Source: Spinacia oleracea (Eukaryota > Streptophyta > Magnoliopsida > Caryophyllales > Amaranthaceae). From it: DNA of 64,000 bases. A program made the translations under genes and the position numbers. The stretch's first letter is position 1; each line of letters begins with the position of its first letter. Positions 5,425-62,097 of the stretch are shown piece by piece. Location: NCBI RefSeq assembly GCF_020520425.1, contig NC_079487.1, positions 63,480,398 to 63,544,397 of the forward strand, given 5' to 3'. The notes below the pieces were generated by a model, which worked only from the letters and a program-made list of their open reading frames with translations, was not told the DNA's origin and did no database searches.

Positions 5425-5434
5425 AAGTGGGAGA
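5425..5434 (+). promoter_or_regulatory. Polypurine tract of copia 1
   Basis: AAGTGGGAGA lies one base before the LTR start TGAAGG. The same tract precedes the 3' LTRs of copia B (31769-31778) and copia A (38502-38511). It primes plus-strand DNA synthesis in LTR retrotransposons. Confidence 0.8.
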
Positions 5435-5754
5435 CTGAAGGAAATAATGCCCTTGGTCCAAGTATGCATTCAATGTTAAGTCTAATAAATGCAGTTCAGT
5501 ATTAATTAACAAGTTAATAATTCAGTGAGATCAAGTGAGCTGAATGCCTAGCTAGAGGCCGCTTCAGTTCAAGTGGAATTAATGATATTAATCCACAGCT
5601 TACTCTTGACTGAACCCGTAGGGTCACACAAATAGTACGTAAACGGATCAAGTATTTACTGGCATTAAATACTCTATCTATGGATATTCGGAATCGACGG
5701 ATCTTGGTTTTAGTGGGAGCTAAGATCGTCACAAGCAAGAAATGAATACTCCGG

Positions 5755-6060
5755 AAACGATGATATTGCCGGAAACGAAAATATGGTCTTTATCGGAAAA
5801 ATAAATATTATCCAAGTCGTAGATGTTGCCGGAAACGGAAACATGGTACGTATCGGAAAATATTATCGGAAATGGAAATATTGCCGGAATCGGAAATATT
5901 GCCGGAAACGGAAATATTGTCAGAATCGGAAATATTATCGGAATCGGAAAATAATTCCGGAAACGGAAATATTAAATATTTGTTCGAAACGGAAATTAAT
6001 TCCGGAATCGGAAATATTAAATATTGTTCGTATCGGAAATGAATTTCGGATTCGGGAATT
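5755..6060 (+). repeat. CGGAAATATTG short-repeat cluster in LTR
   Basis: About 300 bp made of variants of an 18-bp-like unit (CCGGAAACGGAAATATTG, CAGAATCGGAAATATTATC and others). The same cluster is present in both copia B LTRs at about 23028-23345 and 32091-32408, so it is a family feature rather than a chance microsatellite. Confidence 0.8.
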
Positions 6061-6456
6061 TAATCGGAAGCGTATCGTACGAATTAGCATCGGACGAGGC
6101 CTGCTAGACGAAGGCCCAGCACGAAGCCAGGCCATCGCCCAGCGAGCCAACACGCACCATCGCACGCCAAGCCTCGACCAGGCCTAGCGCAAGACCAGGC
6201 CCAGCCAAGGCCTGGGGCGCGCGCGCGAGAGCACAGCAGCAGTGGGCAGAGCGCTGTGCGCCTAGTGTGGGCCGCAAGGCTTGCGCGGGTGTACGGTGCT
6301 CGTGCAATGCTTGTGCGAGAATCCTAAAGCAATCGGGATTCGAAATATGATTAAATCCTAAAACTATTAGATAATGATTATTTAATAGAGTCCTAGCAGG
6401 ATTCTAATTAAACTAATTAATATCCTAATAGGATTATAATTCCTTTTCCGTACCTC

Positions 6457-6464
6457 TATAAATA
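6457..6464 (+). promoter_or_regulatory. TATA box in copia 1 LTR
   Basis: CCTCTATAAATAAGTGCC is in the position matching the TATA box of the copia B LTRs (23736-23743 and 32799-32806), near the U3/R boundary. Confidence 0.6.
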
Positions 6465-6818
6465 AGTGCCTAGGGTCATAATTTATAGACACGATTGAAG
6501 TATTCAAAGGGTAAGTTTTTGAAAGAAAAATCAGCCATACACTTGCAAACACAATAGCCGAAATTCCTAGTAACCTTAAGGGCGATTCTAGTTGGTCTAA
6601 CTTGAGGCGGATCCGGACGTACTGTGGACTATCTACGGAGGGACGACATTTGGAGTCCTAAAGACTTGTTCTTGTTCGGTTCGGGCGCAGCTAGGGAGGG
6701 CACGCTACAAAGTGTATGCTCCTAAATTATGCTATATGATTATGTGTAAATAATATGTTTCCAGGCATTAAGGTTTTCCGCATGATTTATGTTTTGTCAT
6801 ATGTATCATAACCTAACA

Positions 6819-13583: not shown

Positions 13584-14506
13584 AGCAATTGGCTGTTGGC
13601 TGTTGGCTGTCGGCTGTCGGCTGTTTTACTTGGCTGGTTTGACTGGCTGTTCAAGTTGGCTGCTTTTGTTGGCTGTTTGACTATGGATTGGTTACAAATA
13701 TGTTTGGTAAAATCAGTTGTTGGCTGTTGGCTGTAGCTATGTAAAATGACATTTAAGGACATTTAATGTCTTTTATTCATTTTTCAATACATACTGTGTA
13801 TTGTGTACGGAGTAAAACGTAATTACAAATAAATAAATATAAATTAAAAATAAATTACTTTATGCAATAGTATGAATAAATTATTATTTTAATTAATAAT
13901 TACGGAGTAATAATTAATAACTAATAATAAATAATCAATGATTAATAATTAATAATTAATAATTAATAATAATTAAATTAATAACAATTATTAATCATTA
14001 ATTATTAATTAATCATTAATAATTAATGATTAATTAATTATTCACTTTTAGTTCTTAGTCATTATTAATTAATACTCCGTAATTATTAATTATTAATTAT
14101 TAATTATTATTAATTATTAATTATTAAAAATAATTAATTATTAAATATTATTTATTAATTATTAATTATTAATTACTAATTACTAATTACTAATTACTAA
14201 TTACTAATCACTAATCACTAATCACTAATCACTAATCACTAATCACTAATCACTAATTACTAATTATTAATTATTAGTTAATTAGTAAAAAACAAGGACA
14301 AAAAAGTAATTTAGATAGTGAAAAGCCAAAAGCCAACTCCAAAAAGCTAGTGTTACTAGCTTTTCATTTTTGGCGGAAAAGCTGGCTTTTCAGCAAGCTA
14401 AAAAGCCAGTTACCAAACACATTTTTTGGCTGTTTGACCAGATTAAAAAGCCAACAGCCAAAAGCCAACCAAAAAGCCAGCAAAAAGCCATTTTCCAAAC
14501 AAGGCC
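13584..14506 (-). mobile_element. PIF/Harbinger-like MITE, copy 1, nested in LINE 2
   Basis: About 0.92 kb, rich in TTGGCTGTTGGCTG-type motifs at both ends and with an AT-only core (13860-14280) of TAATTATTAATTA-type repeats. It is the reverse-oriented relative of 62098-63366, sharing for example ACATTTAAGGACATTTAATG and AAAAAGCCAACAGCC. The right end ...CCAAACAAGGCC is intact. The left terminal repeat is degraded before GCAATTGG, so the target duplication cannot be confirmed. It lies in the 5' region of the LINE, just before the ORF1 ATG. Confidence 0.75.
13860..14280. repeat. AT-only simple repeat (TAATTATTA / TAATCAC arrays)
   Basis: Roughly 400 bp of TAATTAATTATTA-type repeats, including a run of about 14 CTAAT(T/C)A units at 14165-14265. 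It is the expanded core of the MITE. The homologous core in copy 2 (about 62330-63070) is longer. Confidence 0.9.
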
Positions 14507-14512
14507 ATAGTC

Positions 14513-18900: not shown

Positions 18901-19545
18901 AAATTGTTGAATATGGCCGGTAGATGTACTCTTATTAAGTCGGTTTTGAGTTCATACCTAATGTATTCTATGCAAACCACCTTGTTACCCCAAACCATTC
19001 TGGACAAACTTGAAAAGGGGAGTAGAAAGTTTTTATGGAATGCAGTGGATCGATCTCGTTATTTGGCTAGACTAAGTTGGGATAAGGTTACTAGGCCTTT
19101 GAATGAAGGGGGTCTAGGTATTAGGAGACTCAAGGAATGGAATTTATCTTTTATGGCCAAGTTAGGGTGGAAAATGATTACTAAGTCGGATAAGTTATGG
19201 GTTCGCATTTTTCAGGAAAAATACTTAAAATGAACAAACTTTTTAAGTTGTATCCCTAATTCGAGCCAATCTCCAATGTGGAGGGACATTTTGAAAGGAC
19301 GTTCGGTATTGGAAAAAGGTCTAATTATAGGAATAGGTAATGGGAGGGCTACTTCTCTTTGGTATCATCATTAGGTGGGTCCGGGTCCTCTTTATAAGTA
19401 TGTAATTAAGGACATTACCGACAGGATAGCTCATTGGTTTGTGTGTGATATCATCCGCGATGGGAAATGGATGTTAGATTGTATTAAACCTTACATTCCG
19501 GATCACTTATATAATCAAATCCTAGCCACTCCCTTAGCAACTCAT
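15930..19545 (+). pseudogene. LINE 2 ORF2, endonuclease and reverse transcriptase half
   Basis: After a Pro/Gln-rich N-terminal stretch, the APE-type endonuclease begins at about 16665 (KICLWNVRGACRKDFF) and ends with IKERLDRALAS and SDHAPIV at about 17230. A frame change follows at about 17345. The RT region has SPGPDGIQPIFFQKFW, then another frameshift at about 17960-17990, then FRQIGLCNTIYKLVTK, LDLSKAYDSLEW, RGIRQGDPLSSYIF and the catalytic YADD in FYADDVFLFGEAS at about 18598. Stops occur at 19231 and about 19372. Copia A interrupts it at 19546. Confidence 0.88.
19541..19545 (+). repeat. Copia A target duplication, left copy (CTCAT)
   Basis: CTCAT directly precedes the 5' LTR and recurs directly after the 3' LTR at 39568-39572. 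Confidence 0.9.
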
Positions 19546-20610
19546 TGAAGGAAATATGTCCTTCACCCAAGGTGCATTAAGTCTAATACCAAGGTTCAGA
19601 TTAATTGCGAACAATTAATTCAGTGAGATCAAGTGATTGGAACAGCTAGCTGGAGCAATGCTTCCGATCAGTGAATTCTAATGGATATTGAACTCAAAAC
19701 TTACTCTGGACTGAACCTACAAGGTCACACCAATGACACGTAACAGATCACCGGATTAAATAAAGGATTAAATGAATAGGAAATTCATTTAATAGCTTTT
19801 CGGGAATTAGTTGGAAACGTATTATACGATACGACCTTTGTCGGAATCGTATATCTTATCGCGAATATTCGTAAGCTGGGCGACACGAATAAATCGTATC
19901 GTACGACGGTGATTCGTCGTATACGAAACGATAAATAATATATCGGAAATATATTAAATCGCGAATACGAAGGGCATCGGAGTTGCCGGCCCGTCGAGCC
20001 AAGCACGTAAGCGTGCAAGGCCCACCGAGCCAGCAAGCTCGCGAGCAAAGGCGAGCAAGGCCAGCCCATTGGGCGCGAGCACGCAACAGCACGCAATAGC
20101 GCACAGCAGCGACGAGCGAGCAAGGCCCACGGCCCAGATGCTCGGCGCGCGCGCTGTGGGCTTCGGCCTGCAGTGTGTCGCTGGGCGCGGGCGTGCGGTC
20201 CGTGTTGCTTGGCTTGCACGGCTTGCTAGCCGGCCTTGCTTCTTAGCTTGGTCGGTTAGTAAGGTTATGAAAATAACCTTACAACCTAATTTCCAACTTA
20301 ACACAATTCATATTACTAAAACCCTAGAGACACAGAGAACCCTAATTCTCTCTGTGCCTCCAAAGTGAGTTCTTCCCAAAAGCAAAGTATCTTGATCAAT
20401 TGTCTAAGCTACCATTATCAAGACGGATCTGGTCGTGTCGGTGAACCAAGTAGAGGAACGACAAGTGGAGTTCTTTGTTCGTGTTCGTTGACAGGTTATT
20501 GTGGAAAACACGCTTCGAATGTAAGTTTGCTTAATCTGTGCTTTATACATGTTTCCTGGCTTTGGGGATTGTTCCACACATGTTATTATGTTTAACTGTA
20601 TTCCCCTACA
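19546..20610 (+). repeat. 5' LTR of copia A (1065 bp)
   Basis: TGAAGGAAATATGTCCTTCA...TTCCCCTACA. It contains a GC-rich block at about 19990-20250. It differs from the 3' LTR by 10 extra bp (ACAGCACGCA-type duplication) at about 20085-20095 and scattered single changes. Confidence 0.93.
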
Positions 20611-20611
20611 G

Positions 20612-20626
20612 TGGTATCATGAGCCT
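20612..20626 (+). promoter_or_regulatory. Primer-binding site of copia A (initiator tRNA-Met type)
   Basis: TGGTATCATGAGCC starts two bases after the LTR end. The first eight bases fit the complement of the plant initiator tRNA-Met 3' end (canonical TGGTATCAGAGC), after which one extra base is present. Confidence 0.75.
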
Positions 20627-22277
20627 TATGTATTCAAAGCATGAATTAGCATGCTTATTATTGTTTTTGCATCTGTCGAAATTTTGGATTTTTTGTTGAT
20701 TTTTCGGAATTTTTTACGAATTATTGGATGAATTGCGTATAATCAGGTCCGAAATCAAAAATCATCGCTTTTTCGACTTTTAAAATCCTAATCTGATGGA
20801 AAACGATTTTCTAAGATAACTCATGAGAATAGAATTGCGAAAACAGGCCTCGGAGTATCGTTTTTTTGGCGTTTTTGTTAATTTTTCATTAAAAATTAAA
20901 AGTGTCAGACAGTAATTCAATTAAAAGGTCGACCTAAACTACTCGGAATTGCTTGAAATTTTGACCCAATGTTTTTGGGTACATGCTTGATCTATGGTAA
21001 AAATTTCAGATTTTTCCGATAATTATAAACCCTAATTTTTCCTTTTCCCAATTCGTAAAATTTGCAACCCTAATTGAATTTTAATTAATTTTGGTTTAAT
21101 AATTCGGTTAATTGGGGAAGGGGGTATAATTTCATGGGTCAGTGGCTAATTTTAAAATTTATTGGATTAAAATTTTGAATGGTTTCGTTAATTTTAATCG
21201 CACTTAAACCAAATTATTAATAATCTGAAATTTAATTGTTTATGGACGATTTAAAGCTTCGGATTTTATTAATTAAAAGTTCAAACTTTAATGTTGATTC
21301 GTTCGTTCATAAAAGTTTGAATATTGTTAGCCCTTGATTTAATAATTTTACAAAATTGGATTGTCGTTAAAGTTTATTGAATCGTTAAAAATCGTTGTTT
21401 TTCGAAAATAAAAATCGTAACTTTTTTTTGAAAAATAAAATTAATGCAAGTTCGTGAATTAAATTTAATTTTAATTAAGTTGGTCCGTATTACGAACCAA
21501 AGGCACGAACATGAGCATAATGGAAGTATGGCTCGTCGAGCCATACAAGGCCATTGCGCTTAGGCCGAGCCATGCGACACGGGCAGTAGCAGCTATGCTG
21601 CGTGCCCCGTGCGCGCTAGGCGAGGAAGGGGCAGGCGAGGGAGCTTGCGGGGCTGCGACGAAGCGAGGCGCAAGCCTTGCGACGTCTAGCACACACACGA
21701 TGCACAACACGCAGCGCAGGGGCAGCATGGCTGCGGGGACGCGGTGTGCGCGCCCGCGCGATGGGGATGGGGGTGCGCGAGCTTTGCTCGTGTGCTCTTG
21801 GGCCTCACGCAAGGCGGGGTTGGGCGCAAGCCTAGCCCGATTTAGCAATTGGACTTTTTTTTGTTAAAAATCGTTTAATTAGTTGGGCTTCACATATTTG
21901 CATTAATTTGGGCTAACGGGATATTTAATTTAATATTTTATTTGCTTGGGCCGGGCCGCGAGTTTTAATTTAATATTTCATAATTAATTATCCGGAATAA
22001 TTATTGGTTTGGGTGGGAGCCACTAAATGAAATTAAAATGAAATAATTATTTTAATTATTTCGTAGGTCGCATTATTTTAATTAAATTCAATTTTAATTA
22101 GAATAAAGTCTAAGGATTAATAATTTGGAAATTGATTAATCTTTTAGGACGCGTTTATGTGAACGTGAATTTTAATTAATTCACGTAAATACTTGCATAT
22201 TAACATGGGCCATTCGTTTTAGCATACGAATGGGTGAATGCATAGAATATATATTTTATGCAATGCAGGTACTCCAA

Positions 22278-22524
22278 GTGACTAGTATGGCCAATTTAGG
22301 ATAGTTAAATACGGTCTGCGTACCGTTCTATCTTTGAATCTAAAGTTTTAAATATGGTCTGCGTACCATGGAAATTTTGATGTAATTTTATTATTTTCAA
22401 GTATTTCTAAGTTTAGAACTTTAAGTTAGCATTTGAACGAAGATTCAAGACGATGCCAAGCTAACAAGGAGGTGATGAAGATTGGAAGCTTCAAGACAAG
22501 ATGTTTTGGGCCATACTAGATCAC
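22278..22524 (+). promoter_or_regulatory. Conserved structured leader segment, copia A
   Basis: GTGACTAGTATGGCC (22278-22292) pairs with GGCCATACTAGATCAC (ends 22524) as a long-range inverted repeat. Inside are two hairpins sharing the loop CTGCGT: ACGGT-CTGCGT-ACCGT at 22311-22326 and ATGGT-CTGCGT-ACCAT at 22354-22369. The same arrangement is present in copia B at 26070-26303. Function is unknown; packaging, dimerisation or translation control are possibilities. Confidence 0.65.
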
Positions 22525-22539
22525 CATTTATTTATGGAA

Positions 22540-22541
<2 letters not shown>

Positions 22542-22583
<42 letters not shown>
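22542..22583. repeat. (TA)n microsatellite
   Basis: About 21 TA units in the copia A leader. Confidence 0.95.
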
Positions 22584-22586
<3 letters not shown>

Positions 22587-22711
22587 GCGTGAATGTATGA
22601 ATGTATGTATGCTTTGCATGAACAGGTTGTTTCCTATGAATCGATTAGTTTTAAGTTCACTAAATAATCGAACCAACATAGAAACAACTAGGTCCAAGTA
22701 ATATTGAGTTT

Positions 22712-22716
22712 AAAAA
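22712..22716 (+). repeat. Copia B target duplication, left copy (AAAAA)
   Basis: AAAAA directly before the 5' LTR and again at 33165-33169 directly after the 3' LTR. The surrounding sequence is copia A leader. Confidence 0.85.
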
Positions 22717-24101
22717 TGAAGGAAATAATGCCCTTGGTCCAAGTATGCATTCTATGTTAAGTCTAATAAATGCGGTTCAGTATTAATTAACAAGTTAATA
22801 ATTCAGTGAGATCAAGTGAGCTGAATGCCTAGCTAGAGGCCGCTTCAGTTCAAGTGGAATTAATGATATTAATCCACAGCTTACTCTTGACTGAACCCGT
22901 AGGGTCACACAAATAGTACGTAAACGGATCAAGTATTTAATGGCATTAAATACTCCATCTATGAATATTCGGAACCGACGGATCTTGGTTTCAGTGGGAG
23001 CTAAGATCGTCACAGGCAAGAAATGAATACTCCGGAAACGATGATATTGCCGGAAACGGAAATATGGATCGTATCGGAAATATAAATATTATCCAAGTCG
23101 TAGATGTTGCCGGAAACGGAAACATGGTACGTATCGGAAAATATTATTGGAAATGGAAATATTACCAGAATCGGAAATATTGCCGGAAACGGAAATATTG
23201 TCAGAATCGGAAATATTGCCGGAATCGGAAAATAATTCCGGAAACGGAAATATTAAATATTTGTTCGAAACGGAAATTAATTCCGGAATCGGAAATATTA
23301 AATATTGTTCGTAATCGGAAATAGATTCCGGAAATGGAAATTTAATCGGAAGCGTATCGTACGAATTAGCATCGGACGAGGCTTGCCGGACGAAGGCCCA
23401 GCACGAAGCCGGGGCCATCGCCCAGCAAGCATGCGCGCCACAAGCCCAGCCAAGGCAGCGCCCAGGCCTACCGCAAGGCAGGCCCAGCGCGCGCCAAGGG
23501 CCACGGCTGCGTGGGCCGTGCTGCGCGGGCTGCTGCTCGCACGCGCATGGGCAGCCCTTGTGGCTGCCGTGTGTGTGTGAGTTTGTGCTCATGCGTGATT
23601 CCTGAATCTACAAGAGTCAGTGTATGATTAAATTTCTATTCCTAATTGGATAAATTAATTAAATAGAATTCATGTAGGATTCTAATTCCAATTAATTCGC
23701 ATCCTACTAGGATTACGATTCCTTTTCCATAACTCTATAAATAAAGGCCTAGGGGTCATAATTTATACAGAAGTTTCAAAGTATTCAAAAGTGAGTTTTT
23801 TGAGAGAAAATTAAAACACATCTTGCTCATAAAGTGCCGAAATTTTCTAGTACCTTAAGGGCGATTCTAGTTGGTCAATCTTAAGGCGGATCCGGACGTG
23901 CTGTGGACTATCTACGGAGGGACGACACTTGGAGTCCTAAAAGACTTGTTCTTGTTCGGTTCGGGCGCAGCTAGGGAGGGCACGCAACAAAGAGTATGCA
24001 TCTAAATTATGCTATATGATTATGTGTAAATAATATGTTGTCCTGGGTTAATGGTTGTTTCCGCATGATCTATGTAATGTCATATGTATCATAACCTAAC
24101 A
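22717..24101 (+). repeat. 5' LTR of copia B (1385 bp)
   Basis: TGAAGGAAATAATGCCC...ATCATAACCTAACA. It contains the CGGAAATATTG repeat cluster (about 23028-23345), a GC-rich block (about 23375-23580) and a TATA box at 23736-23743. Confidence 0.96.
23736..23743 (+). promoter_or_regulatory. TATA box of copia B 5' LTR
   Basis: AACTCTATAAATAAAGGCC fits a plant TATA box. The identical site in the 3' LTR is at 32799-32806. It should start the genomic RNA about 30 bp downstream. Confidence 0.65.
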
Positions 24102-24102
24102 G

Positions 24103-24116
24103 TGGTATCACGAGCC
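24103..24116 (+). promoter_or_regulatory. Primer-binding site of copia B (initiator tRNA-Met type)
   Basis: TGGTATCACGAGCC lies one base after the LTR end. Like copia A, it has one extra base after TGGTATCA compared with the canonical TGGTATCAGAGC. Confidence 0.75.
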
Positions 24117-25129
24117 CCTTATTATTTTCATAATCTAAATTGCATGAACATGGTTAAATATTACAAATTTGCAAGAATTAAAAGGGGTGATTAATTTTCG
24201 TAATTGTTAATTAATTGCAAATTGCGTTTATTTAATTATACGTACGCAGTTTTTCGGCAGTTTCTTCGTTACTCATCCGAATTGAGTGATTTTTGTGTCA
24301 ATTCCGCATGTAAAAGACATTCTAAAATTTTGACAAAAATAGTATTTTTCTGCCGAACCCAGAATTCTCAAATTCGAAGCCTAACTATGACTTTTCGAAG
24401 GTTTTAGTTTTTCGAATGCAAAATTTCGTAAATTTAAGATGTTAAATTAAATATTTGCGATTCTTGTTGATAAATCTTGAATTTTTGATTGACCTACTGC
24501 ATATGTTTAACAAGTTTGAATGCCTAGTCTTGTTAATTATGCAATCTAATTTGTAATTATGATTAATTTGTTGAAAATTAGAATAATTTAGAATTAATTT
24601 GATTTTCATAATTAATTGTAATTTAATTAGAAACCTATGATTAAAAACCACCATAAAAATTGTAAATTTACGATAAATTTTAAATTTTTATGACCTAGAC
24701 TTGAATCCATAACAATCGGAAATCAATTGGATAATAAATTTTCGATTTTTTCGCCCTAAAATTATGAAATTAATAATATTTATTAATTTGTCATTAATTT
24801 TAAATATAAATTTTAAATTTTTATGCGATTCGTTCATATAACTTGCACGCACGAAGCAATGGACGCTTCGTGTTACCCTTAAGGGGTGTTGTATAATGCG
24901 GGCATGCGACGACGAGCAAGGGAGCTCGTCGCCCGTGCGGCACGAATGCAATGAGCAAGGGCGTAGTGCACGAGCACAAGGCAGCAGCCCTGCCTTGTGT
25001 CGTGTGCCACGAGCAATGAACGAATGGGCATGGGCGAAGGGCGAGCCAAGGCAGTCGCGTGTGGGCAGCAAGCGAGCTGCGCCACAACGCGCGCTGCCTC
25101 GCACAAGTGCGCGCAGCCTCGCGCGCAGC

Positions 25130-25370
25130 GAGCGCAAGCTCGCGTGCCACGAGCGCTGCGCCCAGCACTGCTCGCGCGCGCAGCGCGCGATGTCGCTCGC
25201 CCAGCGAGCGATGTCGCGCCCCAGCGAGCGATGGCTCGCGCGCGCAGCGCGCGATGTCGCTCGCCCAGCGAGCGATGTCGCGCCCCAGCGAGCGATGGCT
25301 CGCGCGCACAGCGAGCGAGCCAGCGCGCCCAGCGAGCGATCTCGCGCGCGCGCACTGCGAGCGATAGCTC
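25130..25370. repeat. GC-rich repeat, 64-bp period, GCGAGCGATG motifs
   Basis: A unit beginning CAGCGCGCGATGTCGCTCGC starts at 25181 and again at 25245 (64 bp apart). Multiple CCCAGCGAGCGATG and reverse-related CGCTCGC motifs make the block partly self-complementary. Confidence 0.8.
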
Positions 25371-26069
25371 GCGTGCGATGGGGCGCTGTGCGGAGGCTTG
25401 CGATAGGACAGCAGCAGCTATGCGACGAGCGCATGAGCTGCGCGCACATAGCCAGCAATGGCTGTGTGCGTGCGGCCCATGGGCGTGCAACGCATAGGGT
25501 GTTTGCGTTACGATTAGATCGTTTTGAATGTTTAATTTGAAAATTTCAGTTCACGTAATTTTAATTAATTTTAAAATTAATAATTTGAATTAATTTCTTG
25601 GATTTTAATTTTGAATATTATAATTATAATAAATGGAATTTATTCTAATTATTTTACTAAAATTAAAATCATGAATTAATTTAAATGCGACTGAAATTAA
25701 ATTAAATTTTTGGATTCAATTATAAATTTATATGAGCTTTAAATTTTAATTAAATTTGTATGTTTCCGGTTAGACTAGAAATACAATTTTATGTTTAAAA
25801 TTAGTAAAGCATATGAATTTATTGGTTTGAGTGGGAGCGCTTTTTAGTCATAAACTCTTGATTAGGTCTACAAATCCTTAAGGTTAAAACAACTCGATTA
25901 GAATTAATAAGGACTGAATAATTGGTAGATTATTGGTGCCCTTGATTAATTGCTGCAAATGTTTACGTGATGCATAATGTGTTTTACTAACCAGCTATGT
26001 GGGCCATTCATGATAATGAATGGGTGAATGGTATATATATTGTATATGTACTGTTTTGCAGGTTATGAA

Positions 26070-26303
26070 GTGACTAGTATGGCCCAAATAGGATAGAAAA
26101 TATGGTCTGCGTACCATTAATTTGAATGTAATTGGTCTAAAGCACCAAAGTTATTTTTCAATTCAAAATGGTCTGCGTACCATCAAATAGTTGTAATTAG
26201 TTATAGCTTATCCTATTTGAAGAAAATGGTGCCTCCCACGGAGATTTTCAAGACGGACTTTGAAGTCAAAGCTTCAAGATGAAGTCGGGCCATACTAGGT
26301 CAC
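26070..26303 (+). promoter_or_regulatory. Conserved structured leader segment, copia B
   Basis: GTGACTAGTATGGCCC (26070-26085) is inverted at GGGCCATACTAGGTCAC (26287-26303). CAAATAGGATA, directly inside, pairs exactly with TATCCTATTTG at 26209-26219. Two hairpins, ATGGT-CTGCGT-ACCAT, lie at 26102-26117 and 26168-26183. The layout matches copia A (22278-22524), although the surrounding leader sequence has diverged. Confidence 0.7.
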
Positions 26304-26948
26304 AAATATCTTATGCATGTTTTAAGTTATTTATAGCTTTAAATATGTCTTAAAATGCATGCGATCAAAAGCTTGATTATGTTGCATGATTAAGGATTTT
26401 AGTTCACTTAAAATCTAACCAACATAGTAAGAGCCTTAAGTTCCAAACTTAAAAATTGAGTTAAAAGGTGCCATGCCAAAATATACACTTGCTTGGATAT
26501 CCTTTACATCAATCTAGTAATATTTTTTCGCTCAGCGAGGTGTTACTTATTGGTCCTAAAGGGGCAAGGTACACAAATAATTGTGAGTACATGTTAGTTT
26601 TGGTGAAACTCAACGATATAAGTAAGGAGTCCTTTTATGTCGTGGCAAATTCGATAGGTTTACCTAATAAGTTCTTAGACGTACCTATCAACCAAGAATA
26701 GTTTCTAGACTATTAGCAAAAGGCTTTTGCTTACCTAAGATGTTCTAGGATTAAGTCGACAAACTGTGCTTAGTTCTTCAATGATTTTAGGATCTTGGAA
26801 TCATTTTATTCACACCTGCCGGAACACATAACTTGAATAAAATGCTTAATAAACATTGAATTATGCATGTATGCTAGAATTTAAGTTTATTAAGAGAAAC
26901 TGTGAATGGTTATTTATTTGTTTATTCTTTTCAATTGTAGTTTTTAAT

Positions 26949-29900
26949 ATGGCAAACAACAATTCATTCAACATTCGATCAATTCTCGAAAAGGAGAAGT
27001 TGAACGGGAAAAACTTCCTTGACTGGCAAAGGAACTTGCAAATAGTTCTTATGCAGGAAGAAAAGGAGTATGTCCTAGATGAGGCGATGCCCGAAGCTCC
27101 TGGCGACGGGGTCACTCAGGCTGCCCTCAATCGTTGGATTGATGCCAACAAGGATGTGAAATGTCTAATGCTCGCCACCATGAGTGCGGATCTGCAGAAA
27201 ACGTTCATCAACTCAGATGCTTTCACAATCATCAGTGAGTTGAAGAACATGTTCCAAGATCTGGCTCGAGTCGAAAGATTCGAGACTCATAGGCAAATTC
27301 TTGAGACCAAGCTTAAGAAAGGCGAGCCCGTAAGTCCACATGTTCTCAAAATGATTGGACTCATTGAGAATATGAGTCGGCTGGATCAGCAATTTTCTCA
27401 GGAAATGGCTATAGACACCATCCTCCATTCTCTTCATAGCGGGTATGATCAGTTCAAACTGAACTACAGTATGAATAGTCTGGACAAAACGCTCACTGAG
27501 CTTCACGGTATGCTGAAGACCGCTGAAAAGACGCTCAAAAGTGATAAGCAGGATGTGCTTATGGTGCGTGGGGGCAAGTTCAAGAAATCTGGAAAGAAGA
27601 GGAATGCTAAGAAAGGTGGCAACAAGGCCAGCCCAACTAAGCAAACTGGCGCCAAATCTGCAAAGAGGAAGGTCAGTCAACCCACTTCTGAATCCGAATG
27701 CTTCTACTGCAAGAAGAAGGGGCATTGGAAGAGAGATTGCTTGAAGCTAAAGGAAGATCAGAAGAACGGAACAGTCGTTCCATCTTCAGGTATTTTCGTT
27801 ATAGACTGTATACTTGCTAATTCAACTTCTTGGGTATTAGATACAGGTTGTGGCTCACACTTATGTTCCAATCCACAGGGACTAAGAAGAAGTAGAAAGT
27901 TAAGCAAGGGAGAAGTCGACCTACGAGTGGGAAATGGAGCACGGATTGCTGCATTAGCCGTAGGAACTTACTATTTGTCGTTGCCCTCCGGGCTAGTTTT
28001 GGAACTGGAAGAATGTTTCCATGTTCCAAGTCTTACTAAAAACATCATTTCAGTTTCTTGCTTAGATGCTAAGGGATTTTCCTTTATAATAAAAGACAAT
28101 AGTTGTTCGTTTTATTTTAAAGAGATGTTTTATGGATCTGCTAGATTAGTCAATGGACTTTATTTATTAGATCACGACAAACAAGTATATAACATAAATA
28201 CCAAAAAGGCCAAAAAGGATGATTCAGATCTCACCTATCTGTGGCATTGTCGATTAGGCCATATAAACTTGAAACGCTTAGAAAGACTTCAAAGGGAAGG
28301 AATTCTAGAACCATTTGACTTAGAGGATTATGGTAAATGCGAGTCATGTTTACTTGGCAAAATGACAAAGCAACCTTTCTCTAAAGTCGGAGAAAGAGCA
28401 AATGAACTATTGGGTTTAATCCATACAGATGTATGTGGACCAATGAGTACAAATGCTAGAGGTGGTTTCAGCTACTTTATCACTTTCACTGATGACTTCA
28501 GTAGGTATGGTTATGTCTACCTAATGAAGCATAAGTCTGAATCCTTTGACAAATTCAAGGAATTTCAGAGTGAAGTAGAGAATCAATTAGGCAAGAAGAT
28601 TAAGGCACTGCGGTCTGATAGAGGCGGTGAATATCTGAGCTATGAATTTGATGACCATCTGAAAGAATGTGGAATTCTATCAGAATTGACTCCTCCTGGA
28701 ACACCACAATGGAACGGTGTGTCAGAACGGAGGAACAGAACCTTGCTAGACATGGTCAGGTCAATGATGGGTCAGGCCGAACTTCCATTAGAATTTTGGG
28801 GACATGCACTAAATACAGCTGCACTCACTATAAATAGAGCTCCGTCTAAAGCTGTCGAAAAGACTCCATACGAATTATGGTTTGGAAAGCCTCCAAATGT
28901 GTCTTTTCTTAAGATTTGGGGATGTGAAGTATACGTCAAACGATTAATTTCAGACAAACTTCATCCAAAATCTGACAAATGTATCCTTGTGGGCTATCCA
29001 AAGGAAACAAAGGGGTATTACTTCTACAATACATCTGAGAACAAAGTGTTTGTTGCTCGAGATGGTGTCTTTTTGGAGAAGGATCACATTTCCAAAATGA
29101 CAAGTGGGAGAAAAGTAGACCTCGAAGAAATTCGAGTCGAACAACAAACTCTAGAGAATGCTCAAGATGACATTCAGGATGAAACTCAGAGATCTTTAGA
29201 AGAATCTGGTGAGAATCATGGTCAATCTAGAAATGTTACCCCGCGTAGATCGCAAAGATATAGATCTCAACCGGAAAGGTACTTAGGTATTTTGACGAAC
29301 GAGAGCTATGACGTTCTATTACTTGAAAGTGATGAACCTGCGACTTACAAGCAAGCTATGACGAGCCCTAGCTCCAAGCAATGGCAAGAAGCCATGCAAT
29401 CTGAATTAGACTCCATGTCTGAAAACCAAGTATGGGATTTGGTCGATTTGCCAGATGGCTACCAAGCCATTGGAAGCAAATGGGTTTTCAAACTGAAAAA
29501 GGACAAGGATGGGAAACTTGAAGTTTTCAAAGCTAGATTGGTTGCAAAAGGTTACAGGCAAGTCCACGGTGTGGATTACGATGAAACCTTTTCACCAGTT
29601 GCAATGCTAAAGTCTATTCGAATAATGTTAGCAATCGCTGCATATTACGATTACGAAATATGGCAGATGGATGTCAAAACTGCTTTCTTAAACGGCGTTT
29701 TAACAGAAACTGTGTTTATGACACAGCCTGAAGGTTTTGAGGATCCAAAGAATGCTAAAAAGGTATGCAAGCTAAAGAAGTCAATCTACGGATTGAAGCA
29801 GGCATCCAGGAGCTGGAATATACGTTTTGATGAAGCAGTCAGTGACTTTGGTTTCATCAAGAACGCGGACGAATCTTGTGTATACAAGAAGGTCAGTGGG

Positions 29901-30914
29901 AGCAAAATTGCTTTCCTAGTATTATATGTCGACGACATATTGCTTATCGGAAATGACATTCCTATGTTGAACTCTGTCAAGATTTGGCTTGGGAAATGTT
30001 TTTCGATGAAGGATCTAGGAGAAGCACAGTACATATTGGGCATCAAGATTTACAGAGATAGATCTAAAAAGATGATTGGACTTAGTCAAAGCACTTATAT
30101 CAATAAGGTGCTTGATAGGTTCAAGATGGCGGACTCCAAGCGAGGCTACCTACCCATGTCTCATGGAATGACTCTAAGCAAGACTCAGTGCCCAAAAACA
30201 CTTGATGAGCGTAGACGAATGAATGGGATTCCATATGCATCATTGATTGGTTCAATAATGTATGCTATGATATGTACACGCCCGGATGTTGCGTACGCAC
30301 TCAGTGCTACGAGCAGATACCAGTCAGACCCAGGAGAGGCGCATTGGACTGCTGCCAAGAACATTCTGAAGTACCTGAAAAGGCACAAAGATGACTTCCT
30401 GGTCTATGGTGGAGATGATGAATTAATTGTTAAAGGCTATACGGACGCAAGTTTCCAAACCGACAAAGATGATTTCAGATCACAGTCTGGGTTTGTCTTC
30501 TGCCTCAACGGAGGAGCAGTAAGCTGGAAAAGTGCTAAGCAAAGCACCATTGCGGATTCTACAACTGAAGCGGAGTACATTGCTGCACATGAGGCAGCAA
30601 AGGAAGCTATATGGCTAAGGAAGTTCATAGGAGAACTTGGTGTAGTCCCCTCCATTAAAAGACCAATAGCCCTGTATTGTGATAATAACGGAGCTATTGC
30701 ACAGGCAAAAGAGCCTAGACACCACCAGAGAGTCAAGCATGTACTTCGTAGATTTCACCTTCTACGAGAGTTCGTTGAAAGAAAAGAAGTCGAGATAAGC
30801 AAAATTGGAACTGATGACAACATATCAGATCCATTAACTAAACCTCTGCCGCAGGCGAAGCACAACTCGCACACTGCAGCTATGGGAATCAAGCATATTG
30901 GAGAATGGCTTTGA
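26949..30914 (+). CDS. Copia gag-pol polyprotein, intact
   Basis: 1321 residues in one uninterrupted frame. The start chosen is the ATG of ATGGCAAACAAC, just after a putative splice acceptor; an upstream in-frame ATG at 26856 would add 31 unlikely residues. Domains: gag (about 1-240); CCHC zinc knuckle CFYCKKKGHWKRDC (about 252-265); aspartic protease with LDTGCGSH (about 296-303); integrase zinc-binding region (WHCRLGH, about 430); integrase core with HTDVCGP, SDRGGEY and SERRNRT carrying the D, D, E triad (about 491-592); RT with KWVFKLKKDKDG and catalytic YVDD (about 993); RNase H with YTDASF and TEAEY (about 1164-1210). All catalytic motifs are present. Ty1/copia order (integrase before RT) is clear. 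Confidence 0.95.
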   Translation: MANNNSFNIRSILEKEKLNGKNFLDWQRNLQIVLMQEEKEYVLDEAMPEAPGDGVTQAALNRWIDANKDVKCLMLATMSADLQKTFINSDAFTIISELKNMFQDLARVERFETHRQILETKLKKGEPVSPHVLKMIGLIENMSRLDQQFSQEMAIDTILHSLHSGYDQFKLNYSMNSLDKTLTELHGMLKTAEKTLKSDKQDVLMVRGGKFKKSGKKRNAKKGGNKASPTKQTGAKSAKRKVSQPTSESECFYCKKKGHWKRDCLKLKEDQKNGTVVPSSGIFVIDCILANSTSWVLDTGCGSHLCSNPQGLRRSRKLSKGEVDLRVGNGARIAALAVGTYYLSLPSGLVLELEECFHVPSLTKNIISVSCLDAKGFSFIIKDNSCSFYFKEMFYGSARLVNGLYLLDHDKQVYNINTKKAKKDDSDLTYLWHCRLGHINLKRLERLQREGILEPFDLEDYGKCESCLLGKMTKQPFSKVGERANELLGLIHTDVCGPMSTNARGGFSYFITFTDDFSRYGYVYLMKHKSESFDKFKEFQSEVENQLGKKIKALRSDRGGEYLSYEFDDHLKECGILSELTPPGTPQWNGVSERRNRTLLDMVRSMMGQAELPLEFWGHALNTAALTINRAPSKAVEKTPYELWFGKPPNVSFLKIWGCEVYVKRLISDKLHPKSDKCILVGYPKETKGYYFYNTSENKVFVARDGVFLEKDHISKMTSGRKVDLEEIRVEQQTLENAQDDIQDETQRSLEESGENHGQSRNVTPRRSQRYRSQPERYLGILTNESYDVLLLESDEPATYKQAMTSPSSKQWQEAMQSELDSMSENQVWDLVDLPDGYQAIGSKWVFKLKKDKDGKLEVFKARLVAKGYRQVHGVDYDETFSPVAMLKSIRIMLAIAAYYDYEIWQMDVKTAFLNGVLTETVFMTQPEGFEDPKNAKKVCKLKKSIYGLKQASRSWNIRFDEAVSDFGFIKNADESCVYKKVSGSKIAFLVLYVDDILLIGNDIPMLNSVKIWLGKCFSMKDLGEAQYILGIKIYRDRSKKMIGLSQSTYINKVLDRFKMADSKRGYLPMSHGMTLSKTQCPKTLDERRRMNGIPYASLIGSIMYAMICTRPDVAYALSATSRYQSDPGEAHWTAAKNILKYLKRHKDDFLVYGGDDELIVKGYTDASFQTDKDDFRSQSGFVFCLNGGAVSWKSAKQSTIADSTTEAEYIAAHEAAKEAIWLRKFIGELGVVPSIKRPIALYCDNNGAIAQAKEPRHHQRVKHVLRRFHLLREFVERKEVEISKIGTDDNISDPLTKPLPQAKHNSHTAAMGIKHIGEWL

Positions 30915-31768
30915 TGTCTCTGTTTAATGTTTTAAAGTTTTAGAGTTTAAATCTTTTGTAAAACATTATTGGTTAATCATTCACAATAAATGAAAAGAAT
31001 TCATTTTTCCATTTAATTTGTGGTTTATTAAATGATGAGTCCCTTCAATTTGACGATATATTCAAGATAGACTGTCAGGACCAGTCCTGTGACTAAGAAA
31101 TGTCTATCAAGTGAACTTGAATGTCAAAGGTTGAAAATGGTCCCTAATCGGAGTTTTCTATAAAATTGGACGCATAGAAAACGTTAGACGATTAGAATGC
31201 AAGATGACTAGTAGTTCTGTTTCTTGAACTATGTGGACATGGCAATGTCATAATCATTTGCATAGATACTTACTTTGGGAAGACTAGTATCGGACAAGAC
31301 CTATGAAACTTTACTGTAAGAGATGAAAATCTGTCATAAGTAAATTTCATTAAATTATTAGACACTAAATCCTCAATACCTGAGTGATTTGAGATTACTT
31401 GTTTGAGAACTGGTTGCTTTGACGTTGACCAACCGTCGCACCGTAAAAGGAGGCTATAAAGGCAACGCTCAGGTAATCACCTATCAAACGAAGTCTAATC
31501 TCAAGATCGCAAGATTGGGATTGTCCTCCCATAAATCGGGATGAGATGCTTAAAAGTTGTACAAGGCCACTCGGAGAGCTAGAAACTGTGAAATGCATGG
31601 CCGTGCTCGGATGAATCATAGGCTATGATTATCTGTTTATTTGATCAGTTGAACTCTGAAACCGAGGAACACCTCTGGACGTAATAAGGATGACAACTCT
31701 TACCTTATGTTCAAGAGCAAGCATCGAGCGACAAAGGAATTAGGAAATGCACACTTGTCCCTAAGGAC
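30915..31768 (+). other. 3' non-coding region of copia B
   Basis: About 0.85 kb between the pol stop and the polypurine tract, conserved in copia 1 and more distantly in copia A (37670-38501; GTCGCACCGTAAAAGGAGGC is shared). No open frame of note. Confidence 0.7.
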
Positions 31769-31778
31769 AAGTGGGAGA
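31769..31778 (+). promoter_or_regulatory. Polypurine tract of copia B
   Basis: AAGTGGGAGA ends one base before the 3' LTR. Confidence 0.85.
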
Positions 31779-31779
31779 C

Positions 31780-33164
31780 TGAAGGAAATAATGCCCTTGG
31801 TCCAAGTATGCATTCTATGTTAAGTCTAATAAATGCGGTTCAGTATTAATTAACAAGTTAATAATTCAGTGAGATCAAGTGAGCTGAATGCCTAGCTAGA
31901 GGCCGCTTCAGTTCAAGTGGAATTAATGATATTAATCCACAGCTTACTCTTGACTGAACCCGTAGGGTCACACAAATAGTACGTAAACGGATCAAGTATT
32001 TAATGGCATTAAATACTCCATCTATGAATATTCGGAACCGACGGATCTTGGTTTCAGTGGGAGCTAAGATCGTCACAGGCAAGAAATGAATACTCCGGAA
32101 ACGATGATATTGCCGGAAACGGAAATATGGATCGTATCGGAAATATAAATATTATCCAAGTCGTAGATGTTGCCGGAAACGGAAACATGGTACGTATCGG
32201 AAAATATTATTGGAAATGGAAATATTACCAGAATCGGAAATATTGCCGGAAACGGAAATATTGTCAGAATCGGAAATATTGCCGGAATCGGAAAATAATT
32301 CCGGAAACGGAAATATTAAATATTTGTTCGAAACGGAAATTAATTCCGGAATCGGAAATATTAAATATTGTTCGTAATCGGAAATAGATTCCGGAAATGG
32401 AAATTTAATCGGAAGCGTATCGTACGAATTAGCATCGGACGAGGCTTGCCGGACGAAGGCCCAGCACGAAGCCGGGGCCATCGCCCAGCAAGCATGCGCG
32501 CCACAAGCCCAGCCAAGGCAGCGCCCAGGCCTACCGCAAGGCAGGCCCAGCGCGCGCCAAGGGCCACGGCTGCGTGGGCCGTGCTGCGCGGGCTGCTGCT
32601 CGCACGCGCATGGGCAGCCCTTGTGGCTGCCGTGTGTGTGTGAGTTTGTGCTCATGCGTGATTCCTGAATCTACAAGAGTCAGTGTATGATTAAATTTCT
32701 ATTCCTAATTGGATAAATTAATTAAATAGAATTCATGTAGGATTCTAATTCCAATTAATTCGCATCCTACTAGGATTACGATTCCTTTTCCATAACTCTA
32801 TAAATAAAGGCCTAGGGGTCATAATTTATACAGAAGTTTCAAAGTATTCAAAAGTGAGTTTTTTGAGAGAAAATTAAAACACATCTTGCTCATAAAGTGC
32901 CGAAATTTTCTAGTACCTTAAGGGCGATTCTAGTTGGTCAATCTTAAGGCGGATCCGGACGTGCTGTGGACTATCTACGGAGGGACGACACTTGGAGTCC
33001 TAAAAGACTTGTTCTTGTTCGGTTCGGGCGCAGCTAGGGAGGGCACGCAACAAAGAGTATGCATCTAAATTATGCTATATGATTATGTGTAAATAATATG
33101 TTGTCCTGGGTTAATGGTTGTTTCCGCATGATCTATGTAATGTCATATGTATCATAACCTAACA
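31780..33164 (+). repeat. 3' LTR of copia B (1385 bp)
   Basis: Same length and, as far as I compared, the same sequence as the 5' LTR. It is followed by the AAAAA duplication at 33165-33169. Confidence 0.96.
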
Positions 33165-33169
33165 AAAAA

Positions 33170-33621
33170 TTGCCTTCCAAATCAACACTTACAAAAATCT
33201 AGGGATCTAAGATAGTAGGTTTACGCTAAAGCGAGGTGCTATTTTAGTTGACTTAGGTGGTAAGGCGTCCTAAAGGAGCACGTTGATTGTGGTTACAACT
33301 CAAACAACAATGGCATTAAGTTGTGGCAATGGGATGAATTATGGCATTAATTTATTAACCAAGAGTAATTTGGAGATTACTAGCAATAGGTTTTGCTTAC
33401 CTAAAATCTTTAACTACTTAAGACATGCTAAAGCTGCTTAAGGATTTAGGACTTTTGGGGTCTTGGAATCATTTCATTCATTTTGGACCATGTTTTTGCT
33501 TTTTGCATGAATGAAATGTTTTTAATAGCTTTAATGATTGCATGTTTTGCTTTTATTTCAAAGTTATTGAATTGTATGAATGGTTATTTATTGCAAATTC
33601 TTTTCGATTGTAGTAATCAAA
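33170..33621 (+). other. Leader of copia A, right part
   Basis: Continuation of the copia A leader after the nested insertion. TTTTCGATTGTAG at about 33601-33613, eight bases before the gag ATG, mirrors the putative splice acceptor of copia B. Other short blocks are shared with copia B's leader just before its ATG (GCTTACCTAA, TCTTGGAATCATTT). Confidence 0.65.
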
Positions 33622-36600
33622 ATGGTCGCAAACATAACAACAATCATATCATCTGAAATTCTGGATGTCGAGTTAGACTTGACCAATTTTCTTGAATGGA
33701 AAGAGAAACTTGTCGAAGTTTTGAAAGTTTATGGCATATACTATGTCATTGAACAACCTTTCCCTAGCTATGATGCGCGAGGCATGACTCCTGAAAGGTA
33801 CAGAAGTTGGGCACTTCACAAATACCTTGTCACGGAGTTCATCCTTAAGTCTATCCCTGAGAGTTGGAGAGGGAGGTTCATTACTTTTGAACCTCAAGCT
33901 CTCCTAAGTAGCCTCGAGGATAAGTGTGCGGGTTTTCGACCCTTGTGCCAAGCTGGTGGCAATGGGGTTGACGAATTGACTAATTCGATGAGCGATCTCA
34001 AGCTCATAACCCCACGCAAGTCGTGCCTAGAAATCGAACTTCTGGAGGCACAAAGGCGCATCTACTCTGTCAAGATGGACAAAAACACATCAATTCGGTC
34101 TCATGTGGATATGATGTCTGGATTATTTTTCACAATTGAGAGACTTGGTGGTTCCATCAAAGAGTCGGTAGCTATTGCACTAGTGTTGAATTCTCTTCAT
34201 AAGGATTATGAGGGTTTTGAGATGCACTGTCTCTTTCATCAGAAAGAGAGCACATTCTGTGAACTTGTGGAATTACTCATGAAATGCGAGAAAGTCCTTA
34301 AGTTCAATCAAGACCATTTGAATGTGAGGTGCACTAAATTCAAGAAAGTAGGCAAGGGGAAGAAAAGCAAGGCTGCATCTTCGTCCACTCCCGGAGGGCA
34401 TCTGGCGCCTTCCAAGAGCAAGATGAAGAGGAATGCTTCTCCTTCCACATCGCAATGCTTCAATTGTAATGAAATTGGTCATTACAAGCGAGATTGCCCC
34501 AAACTAAAGGAAGAGAAGAAGGACGGAAACGTTGCTTCTCCTTCAGGTATGTATGTTATACATTGTAATCTTGCTAATTTTACTTCTTGGGTATTAGATA
34601 CTGGTTGTGGCTCACACTTATGTTCCAATTCACAGGGACTAAGGAGAAGTAGAAAGCTTGATAAAGGCGAGATGGATCTACGCGTGGAAAATGGAGCACG
34701 GATTGCTGCATTAGCCATAGGATCTTATTTTATTTCTTTGCCTAGTGGGTTTGTTTTGGAACTAGAAAACTGTTACTATGTTCCTAGTATCACCAGAAAC
34801 ATTATTTCCGTTTCAAGTTTGGATTCTAAAGGCTTTAGTTTTCAATTTAAAGACAATAGTTGTTCTTTTTCTTTGAATGGAATGTTTTATGGTTCAGCAC
34901 AACAAGAAAACGCTCTTTATGTGCTAGATACGAGCAAACACATTTATAACATAAATACCAAAAAGGCTAAAACTGGTGATTCGGATCTCACATTTTTGTG
35001 GCATTGTCGATTAGGCCATATAAACATAAAGCGCATGGAATTACTTCAACGAAAAGGAATTCTAGAATCATTCGACTTAGAAAAGATTGATCAATGCGAA
35101 TCTTGTTTACTTGGAAAAATGACAAAGCAACCTTTCTCAAAGGTGGGAGAAAGAGCAAGCGAACTACTAAGGCTAATACATACGGACGTATGTGGGCCTA
35201 TGAGTACGAAAGCTAGAGGTGAGTTCAGCTATTTCATAACGTTTACGGACGACTTCGGTAGATATGGCTATATTTACTTAATGAAGCACAAGTCTGAATC
35301 GTTTGAGAAATTCCGAGAATTTCAAAATGAAGTAGAGAATCAACATGGCAAGAAAATCAAAGCTCTAAGATCGGATCGAGGAGGTGAATATCTTAGCCAC
35401 GAGTTTGATGACCATCTAAAAGAATGCGGTATTCTTTCTGAATTGACTGCTCCAGGGACACCTCAATGGAATAGAGTGTCGGAACGGAGAAATAGGACCT
35501 TACTCGATATGGTCAGGTCAATGATGGGTCAGGCCGAACTTCCTTTACAGTTCTGGGGACATGAGTTGCAAACTGCAGCACTCACACAGAATCGTGCTCC
35601 GTCAAAAGCTGTTGAAAAGACTCAATACGAATTATGGACTGGGAAACTTCCAAAGTTGTCTTTTCTGAAGATTTGGGGTTGCGAAGCATATGTCAAGCGA
35701 TTAATTTCGGACAAGTTACAACCTAAATCTGACAAATGTTTCTTCGTTGGGTATCCAAAAGAAACTATGGGGTATTATTTCTACAACAAGTCAGACAACA
35801 AGGTATTCGTTGCTCGTGACGGTGTCTTTTTGGAAAGAAATCATATTTCCAAATTGACAAGTGGGAGAATAATAGACCTCGAAGAGATTCGAGACGAACA
35901 ACGAACTCAGAACTCTTTAGAAGCAGTTCAAGTTGATGAACCTCCAAGGTCTTTAGAAGAGCCAGTGGGAGTAGTTCCTCAAAACGTTGTTGCCCCTCGT
36001 AGGTCAAATAGAACTATTTTTCAGCCGGACAGATGGACAGGCGTCCTCTTGACTGAAAACTTAGACGTTCTCATATTGGATAGTGATGAACCTTTGACTT
36101 ACAAGCAAGCTATGACGAGCCCGAGCTCCATTAAATGGTTAGAGGCCATGCGATCTGAAATAGACTCCATGTCTGAAAATCAAGTCTGGGATTTGGTTGA
36201 TTTGCCGGATGGGTTCACACCTATCGGATGCAAATGGGTCTTCAAGTTGAAGAAAGACAAAGATGGAATTGTATACATATACAAGGCTAGATTGGTAGCA
36301 AAAGGTTACAGGCAAGTTCACGGCGTTGACTACGATGAAACCTTTTCTCCAGTCGCGATGCTTAAGTCTATTCGGATAATCCTTGCGATTGCCGCTTTTC
36401 ATGACTATGAAATATGGCAAATGGATGTCAAAAATGCCTTCGTGAACGGTGTTCTTGAAGAGACTGTGTTCATGACACAGCCGGAGGGTTTTGTCGATCA
36501 AAAGAACCAAGGAAAGGTATGCAAGCTTAAGAAGTCCATCTACGGACTAAAGCAGGCATCAAGGAGTTGGAATAAACGATTTGATGAAGCAGTCAATAAG

Positions 36601-38501: not shown

Positions 38502-38512
38502 AAGTGGGAGAT

Positions 38513-39567
38513 TGAAGGAAATATGTCCTTCACCCAAGGTGCATTAAGTCTAATACCAAGGTTCAGATTAATTGCGAACAATTACTTCAGTGAGATCAAG
38601 TGATCGGAACAGCTAGCTGGAGCAATGCTTCCGATCAGTGAGTTCTAATGGATATTGAACTCACAACTTACTCTTGACTGAACCTACAAGGTCACACCAA
38701 TGACACGTAACAGATCACCGGATTAAATGAAGGATTAAATGAATCGGAAATTCATTTAATAGCTTTTCGGGAATTAGTTGGAAACGTATTATACGATACG
38801 ACCTTTGTAGGAATCGTATATCGTATCGCGAATATTCGTAAGCTGGGCGACACGAATAAATCGTATCGTACGACAGTGATTCGTCGTATACGAAACGATA
38901 AATAATATATCAAAAATATATTAAATCGCGAATACGAAGGGCATCGGAGTTGCCGGCCCGTCGAGCCAAGCACGTAAGCATGCAAGGCCCAACGAGCCAG
39001 CAAGCTCGCGAGCAAGGGCGAGCAAGGCCAACCCATTGGGCGCGAGCACGCAATAGCGCACAGCAGCGACGAGCGAGCAAGGCCCACGGCCCAGCTGCTT
39101 GGCGCGCGCGCTGTGGGCTTCGGCCTGCAGTGTGTCGCTGGGCGCGGGCGTGCGGTCCGTGTTGCTTGGCTTGCACGGCTTGCTAGCCGGCCTTGCTTCT
39201 TAGCTTGGTCGGTTAGTAAGGTTATGAAAATAACCTTACAACCTAATTTCCAACTTAACACAATTCATATTACTAAAACCCTAGAGACACAGAGAACCCT
39301 AATTCTCTCTGTGCCTCCAAAGTGAGTTCTTCCCAAAAGCAAAGTATCTTGATCAATTGTCTAAGCTACGATTATCAAGACGGATCTGGTCGTGTCGGTG
39401 AACCAAGTAGAGGAACGACAAGTGGAGTTCTTTGTTCGTGTTCGTTGACAGATTATTGTGGAAAACACGCTTCGAATGTAAGTTTGCTTAATCTGTGCTT
39501 TATACATGTTTCCTGGCTTTGGGGATTGTTCCACACATGTTATTATGTTTAACTGTATTCCCCTACA
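38513..39567 (+). repeat. 3' LTR of copia A (1055 bp)
   Basis: TGAAGGAAATATGTCC...CCCCTACA, preceded by the polypurine tract AAGTGGGAGA (38502-38511) and followed by CTCAT at 39568-39572. It is 10 bp shorter than the 5' LTR. Confidence 0.93.
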
Positions 39568-62028: not shown

Positions 62029-62097
62029 AGGTGTCGCCTATTCTATATACGACACCAACATATTTAGAGTCTCATTTTATACTACAGGCGACACTAA

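Follow-up and report, generated by a model that had tools for sequence, protein, structure and literature searches.

The leaders of two copia retrotransposons, A and B, nested in 64,000 nucleotides of the spinach genome (Spinacia oleracea; NC_079487.1, positions 63,480,398 to 63,544,397 of the forward strand; this whole stretch is called the window), share a conserved RNA fold. In both, two small hairpins (H1 and H2) lie within a stretch of ~240 bases shut by a 15-bp long-range helix, which we call P0. That this is a conserved fold of copia leaders, under selection at the RNA level, is well supported. By analogy with signals of other retroelements, we infer that the domain could be a cis-acting signal carried by the full-length element RNA, with dimerisation and packaging into the Gag particle as its most likely purpose, a reading to which we give an even chance.

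A conserved helix and two hairpins

P0 consists of GTGACTAGTATGGCC paired with GGCCATACTAG-n-TCAC, with one bulged base (leader alignment and folding of A and B). Over the 31 letters of its arms, the A and B elements of the window differ solely in the bulge. A third family, C, found by a search for paired changes, has the same domain with the hairpin stem ACGAT/ATCGT, and its P0 bulge is two letters. The two window leaders (A and B) fold with z scores of −4.8 and −7.1. Whole-domain z scores were −3.0 to −7.0 in seven folded copies from A, B, and C, with 0/200 shuffles as stable in each case, and P0 had a mean pair probability of 0.94 to 1.00 in all seven. The folding programs used model no pseudoknots.

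A re-scan found the four hairpins exactly where the initial annotation had placed them, with the loop CTGCGT in each (Table 1); the larger domain around them was not part of that annotation. They are the sole matches in the 64 kb at ≤2 mismatches on both strands (0.10 expected), and 0/100 shuffles reached four matches. On its own, CTGCGT occurs about as often as expected (13 against 11.8), so that the signal comes from loop and stem together. The annotated difference at the second stem pair, C-G against T-A with pairing kept, is real, as is the divergence of the surrounding leader: away from helix and hairpins, 77/140 positions of the aligned domain agree between A and B.

Pairwise identities were taken from alignment A3 (columns with letters in both) for window A, window B, and the C copy L105. 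P0 (30/30) and the loops (12/12) are identical in each of the three comparisons. The hairpin stems are identical at 18/20, 14/20, and 12/20 positions, the changes falling mostly in matching pairs, and the remainder of the domain, beside the 77/140 given above, at 85/166 and 69/136 (51 to 55% throughout; Fisher p 1.1e-9 to 4.4e-11 for P0 and loops against the remainder).

Covariation was assessed in the 24 copies of A3, which represent the three families (L055, with a simple repeat upstream, and L109, with an internal duplication, were left out of 26). With both hairpins and P0 in the model, pairing holds in 99.3% of 596 cells. Five pairs show two-sided change (21 cells), with a score of 0.128 that 0/500 shuffles matched; the number of two-sided pairs was reached by 9/500, and further pair types are no more frequent than chance (243/500). 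These shuffles ignore relatedness, and related sequences can exceed them without structure. With partners slid by 1 to 3 columns, 25 to 55% of cells paired, with at most one two-sided change. Independent changes occur at the second pair (T-A, C-G), at the fourth pair (G-C, A-T), and once within P0 (L065). The initial annotation had assigned the hairpins to a working RNA structure, a claim against which unpaired stems or background drift in related copies would speak. Neither was seen; related elements keep the paired stems, covariation exceeds the shuffles, and family C adds compensating changes.

A further hairpin, H0, stands upstream of P0. Among 80 copies, 27 have CCATTCAT-GATA-ATGAATGG and 29 have CCATTCGT-8 nt-ACGAATGG; other copies show a paired one-base insertion or, once (L038), a double change; in some the hairpin is broken, and the anchor is missing from 8. 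Folding of the 115 to 125 bases upstream of P0 gave three A copies z scores of −6.0, −3.2, and −1.8; two B copies reached −2.5 and −2.1, and four C copies lay between −1.0 and −1.9. Paired changes back H0 in A and B; in C its support is weak.

A transfer RNA or known RNA family as the identity of the domain was rejected after scans; an Rfam scan of 20000-34000 gave no match at the curated score and one sub-threshold match elsewhere (31029-31059). A conserved coding frame across the domain was also rejected (open in C1, with stops in A and B, by eye).

Copies across the genome

The genome searched was the window's own plant assembly (894,210,420 bases), and all copies come from that one genome. 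The sequence GGTCTGCGTACC is found at 14,510 + 15,049 = 29,559 places (reversed control, 4 + 3 = 7), the P0 arm followed by GGT-N6-ACC at 8,828 + 9,150 = 17,978 (control, 0), and the B-type second hairpin with its flank at 7,896 + 8,233 (control, 0). Two motifs spaced 12 to 42 bases apart occur at 253 + 251 places (control, 0), nearly all of them, among 100 matches listed, with the A-type gap of 31.

Hairpins altered at both sides of stem pair 4 occur at 256 places, against 103 in the control; among 100 matches listed, 72 have A-T, and the 28 others (7 Watson-Crick) are in line with the control. Six stretches were fetched at A-T places. The P0 5' arm is exact in 6/6 and the 3' arm in 5/6 (one change in L107), and all six carry the ACGAT/ATCGT hairpin, with T-G at the second pair in L108. 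Both C hairpins are exact in L105 and L106; the second is altered or lost in the other four. Exact two-hairpin C copies are few (5/6 places found; control, 4).

Beyond spinach, the viral_contigs set contained exact ATGGTCTGCGTACCAT in 17 stretches (probably chance, as the other exact tags searched were absent from all of them), and P0 arms in 3 and 1 stretches; gag and reverse-transcriptase scans of it gave no relative. Plasmids gave no match. In genome_contigs, a Bradyrhizobium record (L018) holds a plant-type copia fragment too short for a leader, probably contamination.

Loop sequence and pairing forms

Loops were tallied at the first 100 places on one contig, with searches blind to the loop; subfamily variants are not independent. 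First hairpins, chosen by the P0 arm and the GGT/ACC stem, have CTGCGT in 77 and TGCG in 95 among 100 matches listed. B-type second hairpins, again among 100 matches listed, have CTGCGT in 71, CTGCGA in 17, ATGCGT in 5, and others in 7, with TGCG kept in 96; the loop core is thus not drifting. Its core includes a CpG, a dinucleotide that decays fast in methylated DNA. As RNA, UGCGUA pairs with itself through two G-U pairs (computed), and of 18 single changes ordered by computed self-pairing, the two commonest first-hairpin loop variants come second and third. We rejected pairing between the loop and an ACGCAG elsewhere in the leader: that sequence occurs once per leader, at unrelated places.

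Since each hairpin is self-complementary, the two repeats can also pair with each other. The two forms were compared in the 73/80 copies (35 of A, 34 of B, 4 of C) that had exactly two hairpins. Constrained folding favoured the cross-paired form in 34/34 B and 3/4 C copies, and the hairpins in 31/35 A copies (cross form in 4). All 350 cells of the A copies pair in the hairpin model (348 Watson-Crick), against 33/350 unpaired and 35 G-U in the cross model. The cross model has 13 covarying cells and a score of 0.104, above 500/500 shuffles, versus 21 cells and 0.128 for the hairpins. Both forms may be in use, as far as these models go. It is unlikely that the repeats form one long imperfect duplex in place of hairpins, the conserved loop being really helix sequence. 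Such a duplex would agree with the folding of the B and C copies and with its own score above the shuffles, but it is broken by family A, where hairpins are favoured and the cross model leaves cells unpaired, and it gathers fewer covarying cells.

Dimerisation and packaging as the proposed function

In the mechanism that we propose, P0 would close a ~240-base loop displaying two hairpins with CUGCGU loops, the core UGCG of which hardly varies. The loops could open contact between two RNA copies by self-pairing (UGCGUA, two G-U pairs), which would then pass into an extended duplex; alternatively, they could be read by Gag. The asymmetric loop keeps a single orientation with respect to the element, an argument for action as RNA.

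Retroviral packaging signals and dimerisation initiation sites (psi/DIS), including the paired GACG hairpins of murine leukaemia virus, have tandem like loops that kiss and then form an extended duplex. The likeness is one of form, and loop pairing here would need G-U pairs. In Ty1, two hairpins with complementary apices in a helix-closed domain serve dimerisation and packaging (PMC5454406). This TIPIRT domain, with SL1a/SL3a, belongs to the same copia superfamily and likewise has two hairpins with pairable apices in a helix-closed domain of the genomic RNA (PMC5454406); complementary apices (computed) and hairpins in the loop of a long-range helix (seven folded copies) are both predicted for the spinach elements. 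The Ty1 domain lies at the extreme 5' end and has a pseudoknot and 7-nt complementary motifs (PMC5454406), whereas the spinach domain lies mid-leader, ~2 kb (B) and 1.7 kb (A) past the primer site, and has 6-nt loops with a UGCG core and, as far as predicted, a simple long-range helix. For BARE (Angela), a related plant copia, conserved dimerisation and packaging signals are mentioned in passages that give neither sequence nor structure, so the likeness is by mention alone (PMC3735527). The literature searched, with most subscription papers beyond reach, yielded no account of a domain of this kind in plant copia elements, and, judged by title, no retrotransposon paper was among the accessible literature containing the hairpin motif letters.

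What follows the leader also bears on a portable signal. Context copies were mostly chosen by motif or rare spacing, so the following fractions are not genome rates. Among 54 copies listed, 32 are followed by gag, in one of two types by reading, 14 are followed by a common non-coding tail, and 8 are ambiguous. A-type and B-type leaders were each found with both gag types, which suggests module exchange. The 14 tail copies (L035, L040, L044, L048, L049, L054, L062, L066, L026, L030, L073, L077, L082, and L083) come from single-linkage grouping of 26 tails; their longest open frame is 35 to 68 codons in 730 to 806 bases, and their leaders are A-type in 8 and B-type in 6. Two were followed for 4.6 to 5.5 kb: L082 (L082/L111) is without gag and has diverged pol remnants without a long open frame, with B-like sequence near the 3' end, and L054 (L054/L112) has neither gag nor pol that we could see. 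That the leaders precede different gag types as well as a non-coding tail would fit a portable signal served in trans. Large retrotransposon derivatives (LARDs) are alike in being non-coding derivatives with conserved RNA structure that are assumed to be mobile in trans; they form large uniform groups, such as grass Sukkula (PMC7215508), whereas here two derivatives were read at length. Separately, the tail copies on A-type and B-type leaders are candidate non-autonomous families.

A more specific form of the proposal is a two-state RNA switch: in the monomer the two self-complementary sequences would stay as local hairpins, and in the other state they would form an extended duplex, either inside a single RNA or joining two. 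P0 would hold this dimerisation switch, which non-autonomous partners would use in trans. We regard the switch as tentative and rather unlikely.

Several points weigh against dimerisation and packaging. The evidence consists of sequences and predicted folds, and the independent compensating changes are few and come from a single genome. Stem pairs 3 and 5 have no compensating family, only single compensated copies: pair 3 is changed at 108 places, with one compensated (C4:95052499) among 100 matches listed, and pair 5 is changed on both sides at 2 places, 1 of them compensated. The cross model, too, scores above 500/500 shuffles. CTGCGA, the commonest variant of the B-type second hairpin, self-pairs less well (11th of 18 single changes), so that kissing is no more likely than recognition of the loop by a protein; the modelled loop variants appear to give mixed evidence for kissing. 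The predicted dimer is more stable than the monomer, as expected of any self-complementary hairpin. In contrast to the Ty1 domain, this one lies 1.7 to 2.0 kb past the primer site, and in B 645 bases separate it from gag. Finally, the non-coding copies keep much of the other leader too, so their retention is not specific to the domain.

Other explanations

That the domain controls translation, by ribosome shunt over a stable structure or by internal entry despite many upstream ATGs, is quite unlikely. The leader from primer site to gag has 74 ATGs in B and 61 in A, and plant pararetroviruses are described as shunting over leader structure (PMC2241666, PMC5902531), but 17 (B) and 22 (A) ATGs still lie downstream of the domain, and a shunt does not obviously require strong conservation of loop sequence. 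In 73/80 copies the base of P0 coincides with the end of a short frame, a weak count because GTGACTAG by itself stops two of three frames.

More doubtful still is a role in export or splicing control, whereby the domain would retain or transport unspliced RNA much as retroviral transport elements with paired binding sites do; for MusD, a transport element with kissing loops has been described (PMC12786077). YAGG stands just 5' of P0 (≤24 bases upstream) in 74/80 copies, and pyrimidine-rich TTGTAG directly precedes gag in A and B, with YAG kept there in 8/9 fetched copies found. A simple consensus scan of long terminal repeat (LTR) and leader, however, gave no 5' splice donor common to A and B. 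The many upstream ATGs and the acceptor-like site before gag leave room for gag to come from a spliced RNA without the domain; gag may be translated from such an RNA, which would suit a packaging signal.

An element acting as DNA, either a miniature inverted-repeat transposable element or a site for a dimeric transcription factor, is very improbable. The P0 arms do resemble terminal inverted repeats and palindromes are typical of factor sites, but reading of A and B gave no target duplication at the arms, conservation continues upstream of them (H0, YAGG), and the asymmetric loop keeps one orientation. Sireviruses carry conserved short palindromes in non-coding copia DNA, and these repeats have a CGG-CCG core and lie upstream of the TATA box or by ENV (PMC2829016); here the hairpins lie in the leader, and CGG...CCG happens to occur in H1 of A and is absent from the B and C hairpins. 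Least probable of all is recent shared ancestry without selection, which the origin of all copies in one genome would allow but which the gap between the neighbouring leader (51 to 55% identical) and P0 and loops (100%) in the three copies compared, and several double changes that preserve pairing, speak against, barring gene conversion confined to those short pieces.

Genomic context

According to the LTR pairs in the window, element B is inserted in the leader of element A. Copia-type gag, integrase, and RVT_2 follow in the same order in a single frame in both (profile match), which places A and B in the copia superfamily; the gag family match of A is 24.4 bits, under the cut-off of 27. The N-terminal part of the A gag (33622-34400) is unlike that of B. 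The copia group with the domain is probably the Angela lineage, as we infer from a gag that presumably resembles Angela gag and from the prevalence of Angela in spinach. Angela is the main Copia lineage there, with >70% of full-length Copia elements (PMC6337768).

Between H1 and H2, B has an extra hairpin that is probably a diverged third unit; a stem like it, with a varying loop, is found in many B copies but not all. The B leader also holds a tandem repeat very rich in G+C with a 64-base unit (25170-25361). Elsewhere in the window, 2032-6818 is a partial relative of B (94% identical to its 28335-33164), and related, partly inverted tandem arrays lie near the two ends (13589-14511 and 62093-63358).

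Table 1. Features of elements A and B, by position in the window.
Element	Feature	Position	Strand	Remarks
A	5' LTR	19544..20610	+	Paired with 38511-39567, 97% identical
A	Primer-binding site TGGTATCATGAGC	at 20612	+	Assigned by reading
A	H0, CCATTCGT-TTTAGCAT-ACGAATGG	22210..22233	+	Reading, folding, copy survey
A	CAGG, 3'-splice-site-like, just 5' of P0	22266..22269	+	Copy survey
A	P0 5' arm, GTGACTAGTATGGCC	22278..22292	+	Partner 22509-22524; mean pair probability 0.99; same in A, B, and C copies
A	H1, ACGGT-CTGCGT-ACCGT	22311..22326	+	Motif scan; C-G at second pair
A	H2, ATGGT-CTGCGT-ACCAT	22354..22369	+	Motif scan
A	P0 3' arm, GGCCATACTAG-A-TCAC	22509..22524	+	One base bulged; alignment, folding
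B	5' LTR	22717..24101	+	Paired with 31780-33164, 100% identical
B	Primer-binding site TGGTATCACGAGC	24103..24115	+	Assigned by reading
B	H0, CCATTCAT-GATA-ATGAATGG	26004..26023	+	A-T compensating for G-C of A
B	CAGG, 3'-splice-site-like, just 5' of P0	26059..26062	+	Copy survey
B	P0 5' arm, GTGACTAGTATGGCC	26070..26084	+	Reading, folding
B	H1, ATGGT-CTGCGT-ACCAT	26102..26117	+	Motif scan
B	Extra hairpin, TTGGT-CTAAAGC-ACCAA	26132..26148	+	Reading
B	H2, ATGGT-CTGCGT-ACCAT	26168..26183	+	Motif scan
B	P0 3' arm, GGCCATACTAG-G-TCAC	26288..26303	+	Differs from A in bulge alone
B	gag-pol frame	26949..30914	+	Start 645 bases past domain
A and B	TTCTTTTC[A/G]ATTGTAG, pyrimidine-rich, 3'-splice-site-like	26925-26940 and 33598-33613		8 bases before gag ATG in both elements

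Significance

Little is known of how plant LTR retrotransposons select their own RNA in the cell. With thousands of natural variants in a single genome, a defined domain of this kind offers a ready mutational record and a short, testable piece. The domain could also account for which partner mobilises which non-autonomous elements. If the two-state switch is true, it would give a plant copia element a genome-selection signal of defined structure.

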